From Candidatus Cloacimonadota bacterium (lineage in GTDB: Bacteria; Cloacimonadota; Cloacimonadia; Cloacimonadales; JAJBBL01), in assembly GCA_019429305.1 (NCBI GenBank), contig JAHYIR010000019.1:1-38769 (forward strand): a DNA stretch of 38,769 bases, written 5' to 3'. The notes below the pieces were generated by a model. It saw only the letters and a program-made list of their open reading frames with translations. It ran no database searches and had not been told where the DNA came from. Of this stretch, positions 1 through 35,300 are shown one piece after another. Numbering within the stretch: the stretch's first letter is position 1; each line of letters begins with the position of its first letter. The position numbers were made by a program, and so were the translations under genes.

Positions 1-254
1 ATGGAGTACTCCCTCAATGATGCCTGCCATTTTGGTGCAGAAGACTCAGGTTGATAACTACGAGGGAGTGAATGGGTGAGAAGGCGAATATTGATCGATC
101 ACTCAGATTGAATAAGATCATTGTACTAAAAAGGAAAGCAGGATCCGGGATGAATCCTGCTTTGTTTGTGAGGTTTTTGGTGAATCTTCGAGTAAAAGAA
201 GAACCGAGGAAAACAACTCTTCGTGGCTGCTTCCGAGGGCGACGGAGTCAAAAG
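1..254. other. Gene-free stretch downstream of ftsZ
   Basis: I see no convincing gene here. An open frame at 72-392 on the plus strand overlaps the ftsZ 3' end antisense and has no recognisable protein character. The stretch holds the terminator hairpin, an 8-bp inverted pair (ACTCCCTC at 8-15, GAGGGAGT at 62-69), and from 58 a G-rich sequence beginning TACGAGGGAG that resembles the heptamer repeats found in the dcw genes. Confidence 0.6.
126..163 (-). terminator. Likely intrinsic terminator of the dcw operon
   Basis: A perfect 10-bp inverted repeat (AAAGCAGGAT at 135-144, ATCCTGCTTT at 154-163, 9-nt loop) lies about 90 bp beyond the ftsZ stop. Read on the minus strand, the stem ends in CTTT and is followed by CCTTTTTAGT, a short U-rich tail. 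This fits a rho-independent terminator for the leftward division/cell-wall transcript. The U tract is interrupted by CC, so efficiency is uncertain. Confidence 0.6.
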
Positions 255-1499: not shown

Positions 1500-2783
1500 C
1501 TAAAAGAAATCAGCGATGTTATCATATATAGTTTTTATAATGCCTTTTGTCATTTTGACAATGCTTCTTGCCGGGGGGATAACATTATTATCTACCTCTT
1601 CTGCAGCAACTAAGTCAGCAGCGTGATATAATAATCCGACAGCTGTAGCATATTTGGGGTCTTTTAAATGTTTGGTTGGATTATTCAAGCGGGAAAGATC
1701 AGGATACCCAATTCTGACCTCCATATTAAAAACATCTTTTGCTAAGTATTCAATGTGTGATAAGAGAGAAGTACCCCCAGTAATTATTAACCCAGCAGAC
1801 ATATAATCATGGTACTTAATATTAGCGATCGAGGTATAAGCGATCTCTAATATTTCTCTCACTCTGCTCTCAATGATCTTAATAAAATACTTTAGTTTTT
1901 GAGGTTTTTGTTGCCTGCCACCCATCCCTTCAACTTCTATGACAGCATTTTCATCTACCTCAGAATCTATAACATCGCCATATTGGATCTTAAGTTTTTC
2001 AGCAAATTTCTGGGTTGTAGTAAGCCCTAAAGCAATGTCATTAGTGACGTTGTTGCCTCCCATTGGCTTGATCAGACTGAACCGGATACTGTTTTTATAA
2101 AAGCAGGCGATATCTGTTGTACCTCCTCCAATATCAAGCAAAACGCAGCCCAAATACATTTCATCGTTCGTAAGTACAGCTTTACTGGAAGCGACCGGTT
2201 CCAAGATAATGCTTTCCGGTTTATATCCGATCAATTCGAAGCATTTATTGACATTTCTCAGGGCGTTGATGTCTGAAAGGATCACATGTACGTGGGCAGT
2301 AAGAATATAACCGCTCATATCAGCGGGATCTATAATATTATCCTGATTATCAACCTCAAAGTACTGAGGGATGGCATGAATTATTTTTTGACTCTTATCA
2401 CCTTCTTGGGTAATAACTGATTCTTCTGCGTTCCTGATCACTTTGAGAATATGTTCCTGATTGATCTCTGCAGGTTCTCCTCTGATGGGATCAGTTAATG
2501 ATAACCTGCTGATAGCATTGGTACTTTTTATATGTTCACCGGCAATACCAACGAAGATATTTGATGCCTTGATCTCAGCGTTTTTCTCAGCAATTTCGAG
2601 TGCCTTTCTGATCGAATCGGAAGTTTTGCGGATATCTTTGATGATCCCATTCTCTATACCGACTGACTGAGCGTCACCCACACCCAACAAATCAAATTTG
2701 CCATTATCCAGCAACCGGGCAATAATAACTGAGATCTTTGTCGTTCCCAGATCCACTGCAGTGACAACTGTTGTTCGTTTCAT
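1500..2783 (-). CDS. ftsA: Cell division protein FtsA
   Basis: FtsA is the actin-like ATPase that tethers FtsZ to the inner membrane and recruits late division proteins. The 427-residue product begins with the actin-fold phosphate-1 motif VDLGTTKIS (about 11-19). The phosphate-2 motif LLDIGGGTTDIA is near the middle, and an IITGGTSLL adenosine-type motif follows. The C-terminal stretch IVKMTKGIIKTIYDNIADFF is amphipathic, as expected of the membrane-targeting helix. GGGAGG precedes the ATG. It lies 11 bp downstream of ftsQ and just upstream of ftsZ, the conserved ftsQ-ftsA-ftsZ order. Confidence 0.96.
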   Translation of the reverse strand: MKRTTVVTAVDLGTTKISVIIARLLDNGKFDLLGVGDAQSVGIENGIIKDIRKTSDSIRKALEIAEKNAEIKASNIFVGIAGEHIKSTNAISRLSLTDPIRGEPAEINQEHILKVIRNAEESVITQEGDKSQKIIHAIPQYFEVDNQDNIIDPADMSGYILTAHVHVILSDINALRNVNKCFELIGYKPESIILEPVASSKAVLTNDEMYLGCVLLDIGGGTTDIACFYKNSIRFSLIKPMGGNNVTNDIALGLTTTQKFAEKLKIQYGDVIDSEVDENAVIEVEGMGGRQQKPQKLKYFIKIIESRVREILEIAYTSIANIKYHDYMSAGLIITGGTSLLSHIEYLAKDVFNMEVRIGYPDLSRLNNPTKHLKDPKYATAVGLLYHAADLVAAEEVDNNVIPPARSIVKMTKGIIKTIYDNIADFF

Positions 2784-9916: not shown

Positions 9917-12900
9917 TACAACCTTCCTTTGATTTTTTCGAGGTGAATACTATGAGAACCCTTGATGAGTATGACAGCTTTTTTTGCTAAATGAGCGAGA
10001 AGATCCGAAGCTAAAAGAGCTTCGACATTCTTAAAGTGTCTTTCTCCTTCATATAGCTTAGATAGATTTCCTACGGTAATTATCTGAGGTACTATTTGAT
10101 GATGTTTGCTCCTATCAGTTATATGATCCCTTATCTCCAGATGATATTTTTCTGAATCGTTACCTAATTCCAACATATCTCCGAGAATAGCAATATGAGG
10201 TTCTTTTTTCTCACGTAGCAACCAATAATCTATTGCCAGTTTCATACTGATAGGATTGGCATTATAACAATCTGAGATAATCAGACGATCTTTTTCGTAA
10301 TAGATCTCCATTCTGTCTTGGAGCGATACTGGTAAATCTAATCCTGACTGTATAGTCTCTCTCTCAAACCCGAAGTTTTTAGCAAGAGCAACTGCAAAAG
10401 CTGCATTAAGAATGTTAAAAGGTAGATCAGAAGCAATCTTGTATGATTCATTATTGAGCACAAACCTACTGTTATTTTGAGCCAGATCTATTATCTTAAC
10501 AATATAGTTTTTATGGTGTTTAACCCCTTTTTCTTCAAAACCTATCCGTAATAGATTTCCAGGAAGATCATCAAAATAAGGATCGTGAAGTGGTATCAGA
10601 GCAAACCATAAATCTCGCTTCAAGAGAGCACTCTTTTCGCGAAAGACCCCATCCAGATCCTGTAAAAACTCTAAATGAGATGGTCCAATGTTAGTGATAA
10701 TTGCTATTTCTGGTTCACAGATGTCGGCTAATCTCTGAATTTCTCCGAAATGGTTAGAACCCACTTCGATAATTGCCATGTATTGATAACTTGATAGCCT
10801 GAATAGCGTTTTGGAGACGCCTAAAATGTTATTCTCATTGGCAAAATTTTTCAGCACGGGTTGTGATTTAATCGATAAGATATTATAACAGTATTCTTTT
10901 GTTGTAGTTTTCCCACTACTTCCTGTTATTGCAACAATCGGTACATTAAAGAGAGAACGATACTTCTTTGCTAATAGAGAATAGGCATCCTGCGCATTAT
11001 TAACCCTAATGATCCTTTGAGAATCTAATGTATTCTTCACACCTTCAAATTCAAAATCTTCATCAACAACAGCCCAGTTATTCTTAAATTTTAGAGCTTC
11101 TGAGACGTACTTATGTCCATCAAAGTTTTCACCCCTGAGAGCAAAAAAGAGAGAATTGTCACCTATAGTTCGTGTGTCTGTTGACACACTTTGAAATGTC
11201 AAATTAAGTTCTGTTAGCCCCCTACTCCTGAGAAGTTCAATTCGTGAGCTGTTATCGTATAACATTATATTCTTATTGGTTTTTTGTTGCTGAGAGCAAT
11301 AAGCATCGAAATCCCTATTTAACTCCAGCAGCAATCTAACCTGTATTAGATCAAGAGGTACCGATGTTCTTATAGAAGCTGGTGAATGGGATAAACAGAA
11401 ACTAACAGGAGCATCGCTCTCTCGTTCCCTCGCTCTCCGCCCTTCGCCTTTCGCCCCCTCGTATCTTTTACTTATGGCATCCTGACTGATCAGATAGTCA
11501 TCGAAGGGAATTTTTCCCGAGGAGAGCTCTTGATAGGTTTCGTGCCCTTTACCGGCAATGAGCAAGATGTCTTTCTTGCTGATCAAACTGATAGCAGTTC
11601 GAATGGCTTCCTCACGATCTACTACAATCCAGTAGTTTGACAAAGGATGAAGGTGACCGATCAGATCAATAATTATATCAAGCGGATTTTCACTTCTTGG
11701 ATTATCCGATGTGATGATAGCATAGTCTGCATGTTGCAGGATAGCATTAGTCATCTCCTTTCTTTTCCCTTTATCCCTATCTCCTCCAGCACCAATAACA
11801 GTGATCAGTCTTCCTTTTGTCTCAAATTCCGATAGGTCACGGTTTTTTCCCTGCAGTACACTTTTAAGAGTGCTGCAAACTGTCTTCAAGGCATCGGGTG
11901 TATGGGCATAATCGATATAACAAGAGATGTTATGATCATTTGCTACTTTTTGCAATCTACCTTTGATATAAGTTGGCAATGAAGTGGTTATTCTATCTAA
12001 ATCGAGTTGAGGAGCAGCAATTTTGCTTGCTGTTACAGCAGCCGCTATATTGAAAGCATTATGCACCCCTAATAAATGAGTTGAAATTTTTATAGATTTC
12101 TTCTGATCTTTGATGCTATCAGTAAACATTTTATCAGTCAGATCCAAGTTGAATATAGTTTCTGACAGATCTCTTTTATCAACCCGAAATGATATATCCC
12201 CCTCAGTTTGTTCCGAAATAGAGTATTTTGCTCCTTGATACTCATTGTATAACTTTTTCCCATAAGGGTCATCTATGTTGATCAGGGCTACACTGGCTTT
12301 GTCCTTTAGATATTTGAAGAGCTTCTTTTTACTTTGATAGTAATCTTCCATATCTTTATGAAAGTCTAAATGTTCCCGGGTTAGATTAGTAAACACTGCT
12401 ATATTAAATTTAAGTCCATATACACGATCGAGTTTCAGGGCATGTGATGAGACTTCCATTACTACGAATTTGATCTTTTCCTGCCGCATTTTTTGCAAAA
12501 TTTCATTCAATTCAGTTATATCAGGAGTTGTACGTTCCAGCGAATAATGTTCACCATTGATTGAATAACCCAAAGTACCGATCGTCGCAACTGATAATCC
12601 CTGTTTCAGCATGATGTTTTCTATGATCTTGACGATTGATGTCTTCCCGTTTGTCCCGGTAACACCGATAAGAAAAAGATCTGCAGAAGGGTCATTCAGA
12701 TAGAGAGCAGCTAATAAAGCTAAAGCTTTTCTGGTATCCGAAACAACGATTTGTCTAATCTTATTTTCTGTATCTTCTTGCTCGCAGATGATCAATTTAA
12801 TACCATCTTCTATTGCCTGTTTGACAAATCTATGACCATCAAAATTACTTCCTCTGATACAGACAAAGGATCTGATAATTCGTTCTTCGCCCATCGCCCT

Positions 12901-13044
12901 TCGCGCCCTCGTATCTGTGACAGGATAATCTACTAATAGAGAGTAATCATCAACTGAAATATTCCGGAGTGTTCTAAATAATCCGGCAGATCTCAGTTGA
13001 TCAATGACCTCTCTTAGAGTTATAGATTTGCTTTGATCCTGCAT
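9916..13044 (-). CDS. murE-murF: MurE-MurF fusion ligase
   Basis: A single 1042-residue frame encodes two successive peptidoglycan ligases. MurE (about 1-526) adds the third residue. Its ATP loop GVTGTNGKT is at 127-135, and DNPRSE in its C-terminal domain points to meso-diaminopimelate. MurF (about 594-1042) adds D-Ala-D-Ala and has its own ATP loop ITGSSGKTTTKEY near 703-715. The MurF part is full length from an internal Met594. The 65-residue linker is low-complexity and partly encoded by a G-rich heptamer array (KRYEGAKGEGRRARERE). A second heptamer array interrupts MurE just after the conserved DTR (44-46) and adds about seven residues. MurE-MurF fusions are known elsewhere, for example in Bordetella. 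The ATG overlaps ftsI by 25 bp and no strong Shine-Dalgarno is visible. Confidence 0.95.
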   Translation of the reverse strand: MQDQSKSITLREVIDQLRSAGLFRTLRNISVDDYSLLVDYPVTDTRARRAMGEERIIRSFVCIRGSNFDGHRFVKQAIEDGIKLIICEQEDTENKIRQIVVSDTRKALALLAALYLNDPSADLFLIGVTGTNGKTSIVKIIENIMLKQGLSVATIGTLGYSINGEHYSLERTTPDITELNEILQKMRQEKIKFVVMEVSSHALKLDRVYGLKFNIAVFTNLTREHLDFHKDMEDYYQSKKKLFKYLKDKASVALINIDDPYGKKLYNEYQGAKYSISEQTEGDISFRVDKRDLSETIFNLDLTDKMFTDSIKDQKKSIKISTHLLGVHNAFNIAAAVTASKIAAPQLDLDRITTSLPTYIKGRLQKVANDHNISCYIDYAHTPDALKTVCSTLKSVLQGKNRDLSEFETKGRLITVIGAGGDRDKGKRKEMTNAILQHADYAIITSDNPRSENPLDIIIDLIGHLHPLSNYWIVVDREEAIRTAISLISKKDILLIAGKGHETYQELSSGKIPFDDYLISQDAISKRYEGAKGEGRRARERESDAPVSFCLSHSPASIRTSVPLDLIQVRLLLELNRDFDAYCSQQQKTNKNIMLYDNSSRIELLRSRGLTELNLTFQSVSTDTRTIGDNSLFFALRGENFDGHKYVSEALKFKNNWAVVDEDFEFEGVKNTLDSQRIIRVNNAQDAYSLLAKKYRSLFNVPIVAITGSSGKTTTKEYCYNILSIKSQPVLKNFANENNILGVSKTLFRLSSYQYMAIIEVGSNHFGEIQRLADICEPEIAIITNIGPSHLEFLQDLDGVFREKSALLKRDLWFALIPLHDPYFDDLPGNLLRIGFEEKGVKHHKNYIVKIIDLAQNNSRFVLNNESYKIASDLPFNILNAAFAVALAKNFGFERETIQSGLDLPVSLQDRMEIYYEKDRLIISDCYNANPISMKLAIDYWLLREKKEPHIAILGDMLELGNDSEKYHLEIRDHITDRSKHHQIVPQIITVGNLSKLYEGERHFKNVEALLASDLLAHLAKKAVILIKGSHSIHLEKIKGRL
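11411..11463 (-). repeat. G-rich heptamer array in the MurE-MurF linker
   Basis: On the minus strand the sequence starts TACGAGGGGGCGAAAGGCGA and continues as degenerate 7-mers (GCGAAAG, GCGAAGG, GCGGAGA, GCGAGGG and decayed units). The first 34 columns agree with the array in the MurE N-terminus (12875-12913) at about 29 positions. The array is translated as a charged Arg/Glu/Gly stretch from Tyr528, in the inter-domain linker. Confidence 0.7.
12875..12913 (-). repeat. G-rich heptamer array inside the MurE coding region
   Basis: The minus strand reads TACGAGG, two extra bases, then GCGAAGG, GCGATGG, GCGAAGA and ACGAATT. It matches the ftsL-ftsI spacer copy (15247-15284) at about 33 of 39 columns with one gap. 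It codes for ARRAMGEERII directly after the conserved DTR motif. Three heptamers total 21 nt, so the reading frame is kept. Confidence 0.75.
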
Positions 13045-15248
13045 GTTGCCCCAACATCTATACTTCTACCGGCTGGTATTGACTGATAGGATACTACACC
13101 CATCCCTTCAACTACCAGATGTAGATTAAACTTCTTAGCTTCAGCAACTGCTTGCCGTAAGGTTAACCCTATAAGGGAGGGCATTACTTGCTCAGCCGGC
13201 TCTTCCTCAGCCATTCGGCTTGGATTCTCAGCCACAATAATAACGATCTGTTCCTGATCGATCTGTACTCCCTGCTTTGGCAATTGGTTAATGATGACAA
13301 TATTATCCGGATCGGTTACACCTTCGATCTGGTATTTGATATTATTACGCTCCAAGATATTTTGAGCTCTGCTCAGCCGCATTCCTGTTACATTAGGCAT
13401 AGTGACAAATTGCTGTTCCTGTAACCGTATTTTAGGTACAATGTTATAATCGGGTAAAGCGAGTATCTGTTCGGTGATCTTGCGGAATGTTACTGTGGCT
13501 GAAGTAGAGGCGTGTCGATATCTATAAGATGGTTCATCGTAGAGAACCAAACAAACGAGTCTCGGATCTTCTGCAGGGTAAAAACCGACGAAATTCGCTA
13601 TATATTTGTTTGAATATCCTACCTGACCTGCTGCCTGTTTTTGGGCAGTTCCCGTTTTACCGGCGATATTAATATAAGAAAGCTTTGTGGCTGTACCGGT
13701 TCCATATTCAACAACATCCTGCATTATCGTTTTCAGAGTATCAAGAGCTGCTTTGTTAGATAGGGTTCTGATCCTCTGTGGTGAGTTCTCTCTGATCAGG
13801 CGGTGATTCTCATCAATAACCCGGCTCACGATATATGGACGCATTAACCTTCCTTCATTGGCTAAAGCACCGTAAGCAGTAATTAGTTGCAAAGGGGTAA
13901 CAGATATTTCCTGACCGAATGAAATTGAATGCAGAGAATAACCTTGCCAATCTCGCAGTTTGCGCAACAACCCGGCACTTTCACCATACAAGTCAGATCC
14001 GGTTCTATTACCAAAACCAAACGATATCATCGTGTCATACAACGATCTTGACCCTATCCGATCTGCTATCTTGACAGTACCAACATTACTTGATTTAATA
14101 ATAACATCTCTGGCAGAGAGATCATGAAACTCCTTGGCATCACTGATCGTCCTGCCATGTTCTGTTGTATATTTTCGACAATCAAATATCTCATTGGTTT
14201 TAACTAACCTTTTTTCTAAAGCAGCCAGCATAGTAAAGGGCTTGAGAGTAGAACCCGGTTCAAACATATAGGTAGTTGCTAAATTCAATGAAACTCTGAT
14301 CTCAGAAGTTGAGCGATCTTGATCAGAAGAGGTTATGCTCGACATTGCCAGTATTTCGCCTGTTTTGGGGTTCATAACGATGCCAACACTATTTTTTGCT
14401 CCAAAGAGTGTTAGCCCTTCTCTTAAATTCTTCTCCACGATATCTTGGATCCGGTAATCTATCGTTAAGATAAGAGAATTTCCGTTCTTCACAGCTTGTC
14501 TGCCAATGTTCGGTATTTTGATCGGGTTTCTCCGCCCATCAAAAAACATCTTATCCCACCCATAGACTCCTCGCAGATCCCTGTCGTAGATCTCTTCAAT
14601 TCCATTTACACCCTGTAATTGACTCAATTCTGAAAGTGGCTCCTGAGTGCTTGTATAAATAGCGTTACCGATAAATCGAGAGCCGATATTCCCTTTGGGA
14701 TAAACTCTCTGCTGCATACTATACTTCTTTCTTAAACCGGACTGATAGTTTTTTTTCTTCAACTCCCGTTCAATAGCTACTATATCTGATTCTTTTATTC
14801 TATCGTTTATATAAATACTCGACTGACCAGTCGGGCTGCTTAACCTGTTCAGAACCGCCTGTCTCGATAAATGAGAATTTGCCGAGATGATATTGGCAAT
14901 ATTTCGGTAATCCTCTGGCAATTTATTCCGGTCATTTTCCCTAAAACTATTTAGCATAGATCGGTCGTAATCTATCTGGTAAAATCTTACTGTCCGTACT
15001 AAAAGTTCACGGTTCCTATCATATATATTGCCCCGTAGAGGAGTAATTAGCGTTGTTGTAGCTTTGTAACGGGGATCATTCAGACCATGCAGATTGAGTA
15101 TCTGCACTCCGAACAGATAAAAAGTCCAAAAGATAATTGCCCATGATATCAAGAACATAAAAGCAAAAAAACGTTTCATCATTCTTTTGTCTTCAGCGCT
15201 CTTCAGAGCTTCTCTTAATGAATATTGTTTTGGTTTCTTAAATTTCAT
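13020..15248 (-). CDS. ftsI: Septal transpeptidase FtsI (PBP3/PBP2x type) with two PASTA domains
   Basis: FtsI is the class B penicillin-binding protein that crosslinks septal peptidoglycan and is the partner of FtsW. The 742-residue product has a cytoplasmic tail, one transmembrane helix (about 26-48), a PBP dimerisation region starting TPLRGNIYDRN (69-79), and then the transpeptidase domain. Its active-site motifs are STLK (333-336), SSN (386-388) and KTGT (531-534). Two C-terminal PASTA-like domains follow, about 620-680 (MPNVTGMRLSRAQ) and 688-742 (MPSLIGLTLRQAVA). This gives it the architecture of Spo0V/PBP2x-like enzymes rather than of E. coli FtsI. It lies downstream of ftsL across a 37-bp spacer made of a heptamer repeat, which also supplies the purine-rich ribosome-binding sequence. 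Confidence 0.96.
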   Translation of the reverse strand: MKFKKPKQYSLREALKSAEDKRMMKRFFAFMFLISWAIIFWTFYLFGVQILNLHGLNDPRYKATTTLITPLRGNIYDRNRELLVRTVRFYQIDYDRSMLNSFRENDRNKLPEDYRNIANIISANSHLSRQAVLNRLSSPTGQSSIYINDRIKESDIVAIERELKKKNYQSGLRKKYSMQQRVYPKGNIGSRFIGNAIYTSTQEPLSELSQLQGVNGIEEIYDRDLRGVYGWDKMFFDGRRNPIKIPNIGRQAVKNGNSLILTIDYRIQDIVEKNLREGLTLFGAKNSVGIVMNPKTGEILAMSSITSSDQDRSTSEIRVSLNLATTYMFEPGSTLKPFTMLAALEKRLVKTNEIFDCRKYTTEHGRTISDAKEFHDLSARDVIIKSSNVGTVKIADRIGSRSLYDTMISFGFGNRTGSDLYGESAGLLRKLRDWQGYSLHSISFGQEISVTPLQLITAYGALANEGRLMRPYIVSRVIDENHRLIRENSPQRIRTLSNKAALDTLKTIMQDVVEYGTGTATKLSYINIAGKTGTAQKQAAGQVGYSNKYIANFVGFYPAEDPRLVCLVLYDEPSYRYRHASTSATVTFRKITEQILALPDYNIVPKIRLQEQQFVTMPNVTGMRLSRAQNILERNNIKYQIEGVTDPDNIVIINQLPKQGVQIDQEQIVIIVAENPSRMAEEEPAEQVMPSLIGLTLRQAVAEAKKFNLHLVVEGMGVVSYQSIPAGRSIDVGATCRIKANL

Positions 15249-15284
15249 AATTCATTCTTCCCCTTCACCCTTAGCTCCCTCGTA
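15247..15284 (-). repeat. G-rich heptamer array forming the ftsL-ftsI spacer
   Basis: The minus strand begins TACGAGGGAGCTAAGGGTGA and ends GAAGAATGAATTAT, running into the ftsI start codon. It is about 85 percent identical to the MurE-internal copy. Its GAAGGGGAAG segment lies where the ftsI Shine-Dalgarno would be, so the repeat may also act as the ribosome-binding site. Confidence 0.7.
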
Positions 15285-32369: not shown

Positions 32370-35300
32370 ATGTTAACGAAGTTAAGGAAGAAGAGAAGAT
32401 TTATTCTCCTTTTGCCTGCATTCTTATTGATCTTTTTCTCCCTATCGGTCTCGCAAATATCAGCTGCATATTTCGAATTCCTACCGACCGAGATAGAATT
32501 ACCTTCAGGGGAAATCATTGAATGTTTTGCATCGGGTGATGAGTTTTTTAACTGGCTGCATGATGAAGACGGCTTTACCATAATTGTCGGAGAAGATGGG
32601 TTTTACTATTATGGGATGAGAGAAGGAGAATATGTTGTGCCTTCAGAATATCGTGTAAATAGTGTGATACCATCTGAAGTAGGTCTAGAGCCGAGGGCAA
32701 AGATCTCTGAACGACTATATCAGGAGAGACGTGCAATATTTGATGAACCTATACAACGATCTTCAGTTCGTGCACCACACTCTGGTACGATGAATAATCT
32801 CGTTATTTATATCAGATTTTCAGACGATTCGGAATTTACAACACCTCGTACAACATATGATAGTCGCTTCAACAACTTAAGTACTTCATCGGTTAGACAC
32901 TATTTTCAAGAGGTATCATATAATCAATTAGATATAGTGAGTCATCACTATCCCATTTGCGACTTAACTACAAATTTATCCTATCAAGATAGTTTTCCAC
33001 GTAGCTACTATCAACCCTATCATCCGGTGAACAATCCCAACGGTTATAGTGGTGATACTCAGCGCAGATTGAGAGAACATACTCTACTTGCCAATGCAGT
33101 TGGTTATGTTGAACCGGAAGTTCCCACGAATTTAATCATTGATGCCGATAATGACGGATATGTTGATAATGTTAGTTTTATTATTCGAGGAAATTCTGGT
33201 GCTTGGGCAGATCTTCTTTGGGCACATCGCTGGGTTCTCTATTCATTCAATGTCTATATTCATAACAAGCAAGTATGGGATTATACCTTCCAACCGGAAA
33301 ATCAAAGTAATGTTTCGACTCTTTGCCACGAAATGTTTCACACCTTGGGTGCACCCGATCTATATCGTTATAGCTATAACGGCACACCTGTAGGACCATG
33401 GGATCTTATGGCATCCGGATTTGTCCATATGGGTGCTTGGATGAAATACAAGTACACTAATCAAACATGGATCTGGAATATTCCGGAGATTACTTCAACG
33501 GGAACTTATACACTCGATCCTTTGACCTCCCCTGTTAATAATGCCTTTAAGATTATATCCCCATATTCAAATTATGAGTTCTTTGTTGTTGAATATAGAC
33601 GCCAAACAGGGTTTTATGAATCTAATTTACCAGGTACAGGAATGCTTGTTTACCGTATAGATCTAAGAGAAAACGGTAACGCCAGTGGTCCCCCTGATGA
33701 AGTCTATATCTATCGACATAATGGCACTCCTACAAGTGATGGTGCTATAAATATTGCTCATTATAGCAGTCAAACCGGCAGAACAGAGATTAATGATTAT
33801 TCAACAAATCCTGTCAGTTTCCTCAGAGATGGCGGTATTGGTGGGTTACATATACACGATGTCGGAATAGCTGGTAACACAATAACATTTTCGGTTACTA
33901 TGGTAGGAGAATTAACTGCACCATATTTACAACTACCAGAAAATTTTGCCAATTCAGTAACTACGACTCCAATGTTTTCCTGGTCTAACGTAACAGTAGC
34001 TGACTATTATCACTTTCAATTAGCCCAGAACGATGATTTTGAGCAGTTGACAATTGATGAACAATTTCTGCTGACAAACATATATCAACTTGATGAAGCT
34101 TTAGATGTTGAACAAACATATTACTGGAGAGTCAGATCCGCAGACGGAACTGATATAAGTGAATGGTCACCTACATGGACTTTTACTACTGCTCATTTTA
34201 TCCCTCTAACACTTGATTTTCCCGGTGTTACATCCGGAACAGCCATCTTGGGTGATTTTAATAATGATGGTTTTCTGGACTTACTTATTACAGGAAATGA
34301 ATTAACTAAGATTTATGTGAACAATGGAAATGGGAGTTTTTCTGAGTTAAGCCAATCGTTTCCTTCTTTAAGAAATGCCAATGCTGCCTGGGGAGATCTG
34401 ACTAATAACGGCTATCTCGATTTTATTGTCATCGGTAGAGATCAAACACTCAATCCAAGCACTCATATATTTAGAAACAATGGTGACGAGACCTTTACTG
34501 AAATAGATGCTGGTCTGACTGGTGTATTCAACGGAGCGATTGCTCTTGGTGATTACAATAATAATGGATGGCTTGATGTTGTGATTATAGGAGACTCTGG
34601 TGAAGGGTTTTCAACGAACCTATATGCGAATAATGGAGATGAGACTTTCTCAGTTGTAGAAGTTGAAGAATTACCTGATGTTGCACTCGGAGATGTAGCA
34701 TGGGGTGATCTTACTAACAATGGCTTTCTAGACCTTGTAATATCAGGTTCAACTGTTCAAGGAAGATACACAGAGATCTTTTTCAATCATGGTACTGGTA
34801 TTTTAACACCGTCAAATTCATCTATTATAGATCTCTCTGGTAGTTCAATTGATTTAGGTGATTACAATGGGAATGGATATAAAGACATTCTTATAGCCGG
34901 AAATTCGGCTCAAGGTTTGGTAACTAAAATTTATCAGAATGACGGTTTTGGTTCTTTTAATGATATTGAAGCCAATTTACCCGGGATTGCCTTGGGGTCT
35001 GTTGCTTGGGGTGATTTTGAGCAGAATGGTTATCTTGATGTCATCTTAACTGGCTTTAATACATCTAAGGTTCTGCGGAATGTAAACGGAGAATTTACAG
35101 AAGTCAATTCTGGTCTATTACCACTAAATTCAAGTTCTGCTGCCTGGGGTGATATAGATAATGATGGTGATCTAGATCTCGTACTAACCGGAAATGGAGC
35201 TAGCGGTTCGGTAGTCAATATTTACCAAAACAAAATAGGTAGTGATGAATTTGTTCTTAATACGCCACCAACAACTCCTGAGAATCCTCTAACGATTGTC

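Follow-up and report, generated by a model that had tools for sequence, protein, structure and literature searches.

The gene for a MurE-MurF fusion protein in the stretch of Cloacimonadota DNA analysed here (38,769 nt, hereafter the window) raises the question of how a tandem heptamer repeat came to lie beside the DTR motif of an essential enzyme, and whether it was the repeat that lengthened the protein at this site. An initial annotation had reported the units GCGAAGG, GCGATGG and GCGAAGA in the MurE half of the fusion and had regarded them as an insertion next to DTR. The units are indeed present on the minus strand, three of them arranged head to tail and in frame (Table 1), and the region is translated as DTR-ARRAMGEE-RIIRS-FVCI. 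They do not, however, directly follow the DTR codons as had been described, since a GC dinucleotide separates these codons from the first heptamer.

Table 1. Positions of the MurE-MurF gene, the heptamer site and related arrays (window coordinates unless a contig is given)
Feature	Position	Strand	Basis or match
MurE-MurF fusion gene, 1042 aa	9916..13044	-	ORF, profile and MurE fold match
DTR codons GAT ACG AGG, residues 44-46	12907..12915	-	
Heptamers GCGAAGG GCGATGG GCGAAGA, touching residues 47-54 (ARRAMGEE)	12884..12904	-	
ERIIRS codons, lying mostly beyond the heptamers, where the six extra residues might alternatively be placed	12868..12885	-	inferred from alignment
Second array with flank AGATACGAGGG, MurE-MurF linker (SKRYEGAKGEGRRARERES), other reading frame	11414..11471	-	42 nt, 83%
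Third copy, in the spacer that separates the upstream gene for a penicillin-binding protein (PBP) from a small 112-aa gene, TACGAGGG...GAATTATGAAAT	15242..15284	-	
Weaker fourth match to TACGAGGGNGCNAAGG	59..74	+	2 mismatches
In-frame heptamer arrays in two neighbouring ABC transporter genes	contig C23 (L215) 465-547, 2408-2441		

The heptamer site in MurE and related copies in the window

The first half of the protein has the Mur ligase fold, the GTNGKT motif and a family profile score above the cut-off, as is typical of MurE ligases. In an AlphaFold2 model built with 39 sequences (13 of the 52 first chosen were omitted), this half had a mean pLDDT of 87 and its fold was matched by solved MurE enzymes, while the array-encoded residues 46-53 fell below 50; these residues are predicted to be disordered, as expected for a flexible surface loop. 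The local G + C content is 67%, compared with 38% for the gene. When the local peptide was resampled with synonymous codons, a match to the repeat with one mismatch or fewer arose in 47 of 200,000 draws, and none of 300 resamplings of the whole gene gave an equally good match, indicating that the repeat character belongs to the DNA and not to the peptide alone. Tandem Repeats Finder, run with a score of 30, did not list the site.

The MurE stretch is similar to two other places in the window. Over 42 nt it aligns without gaps to the linker between MurE and MurF, with 35 identical positions, and the similarity to the spacer of the PBP gene extends across 44 columns. The alignment scores were 28 for MurE and the linker, 26.5 for MurE and the spacer and 16.5 for the linker and the spacer, and none of these values was reached in 400 shuffles. 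Outside the heptamers, the copies have in common the flanks AGATACGAGGG and GAATTAT, one on each side, and the flank-plus-array pattern was found four times in the window against 0.04 expected. Judged by these alignments, the MurE copy is central to the three. As it is the best-matching partner of both others and function constrains its DTR codons, it would also be the likeliest source of the linker and spacer copies. The copy in the PBP spacer likely contains the ribosome binding site. The corresponding spacer and linker in a related genome, G006, look unrelated to those of the source genome (G000).

Across the whole genome, the flank-plus-array pattern with two mismatches allowed gave 16 matches against 18 in the control, and a genome-wide element led by TACGAGGG was rejected because at this stringency it did no better than the control. 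The PBP protein (window 13020-15248) begins directly after the heptamer-like spacer, and its N-terminal 20 or so residues are missing in the G006 homologue. Elsewhere in the window, positions 1-130, which include the weaker fourth match, are nearly identical to positions 650-800 of contig C5 of the same genome and represent a dispersed repeat at a contig end. At positions 34247-35196 a 53-nt repeat recurs seven times at intervals of about 150 nt within a large ORF, coding for repeated protein modules.

The length of the loop after DTR

Measured from DTR to the same strand phenylalanine, the gap is 7 residues in the MurF half (DTR-TIGDNSL-FFAL) and 13 in the MurE half. The excess in MurE is accordingly 6 residues, or 18 nt, which is no whole number of heptamers. 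An excess of 7 residues and 21 nt, equal to exactly three heptamers, had been proposed initially because different landmarks were used in the two halves, and an exact 21-nt insertion in MurE was rejected. Among the 74 genomes that could be parsed, out of 90 looked at in the order, the gap was 7 residues in 71, 13 in two and 6 in one; the 16 unparsed genomes most likely have stretches that end before the motif, and the single gap of 6 belongs to a genome (G007) with the motif SSK that is probably misread by one residue.

The gap of 13 is confined to the source genome and G006, its sister in the MurE-MurF tree of 30 sequences with a support of 1.0. The two MurE sequences are 53% identical, and the G006 loop, DTRKITNSGKKGSKSSFICI, has the same 13-residue gap while its DNA shows no heptamer trace. 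The initial idea that three heptamers had lengthened the loop does not agree with an excess of 6 residues or with a loop of equal length but unrelated DNA in G006. It had also been foreseen that an ancestral loop would be indicated if all relatives, even distant ones, carried the same residues without repeat-like DNA; this is borne out in part, in G006 only, and nearly all other parsed genomes have the gap of 7. Since the same gap occurs in the sister genome without repeat DNA, the long loop would most simply be older than the split of the two genomes, and the heptamers would later have filled all or part of it. The alignment can equally be written as DTR-ARRAMGE-ERIIRS-FVCI, which would put the array in the canonical seven positions and the extra six residues after it. 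The lesson from MurE is that loop length alone is no proof of a repeat insertion.

No match to the MurE-MurF fusion was found in G001, a genome of the same family as the source that is 88% complete, and G014, of the same family as G006 and 82% complete, gave only a weak Mur-ligase match and no MurE ortholog. The PBP protein gave a similar result, with only a weak match in G014 and none in G001. These missing cell-wall matches may reflect either gene loss or draft gaps. A scan of the named genomes returned only distant MurE sequences, at 40% or less. As the genus of the source is represented by one genome and G001 gave no MurE match, the putative order of events at the MurE site is read from a single sister, G006.

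A dispersed heptamer family and its in-frame copies

The three-unit pattern with up to two mismatches matched 84 times in the source genome, compared with 2 matches for the reversed control. These matches group into 18 clusters, 16 of which were kept as arrays after two weak ones (C3:132404 and C5:91928) were dropped. The arrays contain from 3 to about 17 degenerate RGCNAAG units, mostly GGGCGAA, GGGCTAA and GAGCAAA. A stricter three-unit pattern gave 66 matches in the source genome, 45 in G006 and 18 in G014, and none in 88 of the 106 genomes of the order; heptamer arrays are also present in G051, G010 and G021. The tandem 7-nt units, several per array, and the many dispersed loci, over-represented outside genes, are those of a bacterial heptameric simple sequence repeat.

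A genome-wide survey of the arrays and their reading frames had been suggested at the outset. Five of the 16 arrays run in sense within or at the end of long ORFs, namely those in MurE, the MurE-MurF linker, two ABC transporters and a glycosyltransferase tail, and a looser pattern adds a flippase array, outside the 16, which brings the in-frame arrays to six. The names flippase and glycosyltransferase are readings of the translations, made without a family search. Three arrays that overlap only short antisense ORFs (C3:92453, C37 and C41:5558) were counted as intergenic. With an estimated coding density of 0.88, five of 16 indicates that genes are avoided by the arrays. In G006, among the 12 stretches examined, one array falls at the C-terminus of a 537-aa ORF.

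The cleanest insertion of all is found in the first of the two ABC genes on contig C23, where the array encodes exactly 21 additional residues, GEELRAKGEELRAKSEELRAK. The insert of 63 nt corresponds to nine heptamers with a 21-nt higher-order period. The 21 residues are missing from all ten aligned homologues, which come from 10 of the 12 other genomes searched and include that of G006, and the solved nucleotide-binding domain of P-glycoprotein likewise lacks them. In-frame entry of the heptamer repeat therefore does happen in the source genome, and the earlier proposal of a dispersed heptamer family entering protein genes in frame is borne out by this nine-unit case. The ABC2, linker and flippase loops differ in length among relatives, which makes them weaker cases of insertion. 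In the ABC2 homologue of G006 (C232, L277), the ATPase loop that holds the array in the source genome has an even longer insertion that is not made of heptamers.

The unit itself bears on where such arrays can occur. Repeats of GCGAAGG, GCAAAGG and GCGAAGA are free of stops in all six frames, but GCTAAGG is not and meets a stop somewhere within 21 nt in each frame. Whatever the frame, a run of three GCGAAGG units is translated into the same seven-residue peptide, apart from circular permutation. Over the six coding arrays, T was found in none of the 11 units in which it would start a TAA codon and in 9 of the 17 others, a codon-phase pattern that shows the reading frame filtering such a repeat.

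Origin of the MurE array and comparison with known repeats

We consider it probable that the MurE heptamers are a short fragment of a degenerate RGCNAAG satellite, specific to this lineage, that is tolerated in permissive loops and that here met a loop already long. Such a satellite would most likely arise and spread via replication slippage and short template-switch copying. Within genes, its arrays would persist only if they keep the reading frame open and encode a peptide located in a surface loop, linker or tail that is permissive. The MurE loop after DTR would already have exceeded the usual length by about 6 residues in the common ancestor of the source genome and G006, and the heptamers would occupy it as a tolerated passenger with no function of their own. 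A bolder version, in which a protein-invading satellite with an all-frame-open unit adds residues in quanta of seven and the MurE copy seeded the linker and the PBP spacer by templated patches of about 40 nt, seems doubtful to us.

Several other explanations have to be weighed against the tolerated satellite. The three heptamers may have been inserted in the lineage of the source genome and may themselves have made the MurE loop, with G006 gaining its loop independently. The ABC ATPase shows that nine heptamers were inserted in frame in this genome, and a recent origin is suggested by the closeness of the MurE DNA to the repeat consensus despite the distance between the two genomes. An independent gain of an equally long loop in G006, which would also weaken the case for an ancestral loop, has a parallel in ABC2, where loops at the same site have grown in both genomes with different sequence and that of G006 is again long and free of heptamers. 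However, a net gain of 18 nt and not 21 needs an extra loss of 3 nt, and the G006 gap is exactly equal in length, and we regard this course of events as unlikely. That the array had already entered MurE in the common ancestor and drifted past recognition in G006 only is very unlikely: both genomes are rich in arrays and have the loop length in common, but at such a level of MurE divergence the copy of the source genome would hardly have stayed one mismatch from the three-unit pattern, and the G006 DNA retains nothing of it.

A chance resemblance of an Arg/Ala/Gly/Glu-rich loop to the repeat might be suspected from the presence of only three units at a site that Tandem Repeats Finder passed over. 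It is nearly excluded, and was rejected, on the rarity of such matches under synonymous resampling and the excess of the flank-plus-array pattern in the window, and the 42-nt and 44-nt similarities to two neighbouring copies, extending past the heptamers, argue in the same direction. Least probable of all is that the arrays are functional, for example in phase variation or as a regulator binding site. Regulatory roles have been proposed for heptamer repeats elsewhere (PMC4679880), and the PBP-spacer copy probably includes the ribosome binding site; yet a frameshift in MurE would abolish an essential enzyme, and the arrays, which are depleted from genes, occur in genes with no relation to one another.

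Heptamer arrays have been described with the unit TAACTGA in Beggiatoaceae, Cyanobacteria and Bacteroidetes (PMC4679880) and with GGGAATC in Xanthomonas/Nostoc (PMC4692102). The present arrays resemble them in consisting of degenerate 7-nt units that are mostly intergenic, in being scattered over genomes and in having some copies in ORFs. They do not belong to the TAACTGA family, as their unit is RGCNAAG, and they differ from both kinds in that one array adds exactly 21 residues within a conserved ATPase domain and others sit in core enzymes. In the TAACTGA family, all three frames of the forward repeat are interrupted by stops, and most reverse copies fall in short ORFs without a name (PMC4679880); the GCGAAGG form is open in all frames. 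Searches of the open-licence literature found no paper that describes the RGCNAAG unit or heptamers lying in frame in core enzymes. Cyanobacterial STRR heptamers are reportedly located inside the RNase P RNA gene; like them, the present arrays are found at the periphery of an essential gene product, but the gene there encodes an RNA and those here encode proteins, and the unit sequences differ.

A comparison with Rickettsia palindromic elements had been drawn initially, and one half of it stands. These elements are 105-146 bp long, end in inverted repeats and are predicted to form long stem-loops (PMC2229807); they are found in frame within conserved proteins, where their effect is tolerated, as is true of the repeat in the ABC ATPase. 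The RGCNAAG repeat differs from them in being short, tandem and non-palindromic. In a comparison with 200 shuffles, the 61 nt around the MurE array folded less well than 199 of them (z +2.15), and a palindromic or stem-loop element there was rejected; no inverted repeats were found at the site among the 25 longest of 41 pairs. We read the repeat of the source genome as behaving like a slippage-type heptamer satellite on which reading frame and loop tolerance act as filters. In-frame colonisation of conserved bacterial proteins by repeats has its best documentation in Rickettsia-type palindromic elements (PMC2229807). Here, a simple non-palindromic tandem heptamer lengthens an ABC ATPase and occupies MurE, the MurE-MurF linker and flippase loops, providing a testable case of slippage DNA turning into protein sequence. 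Other short-period low-complexity intergenic DNA, such as CCACGGAGACACGGAG, CACAACTCACAACT and TAACACGTAACCCATAACACG, was observed in L047, L051, L054 and L059 and comprises several further families of 7-8 nt units.
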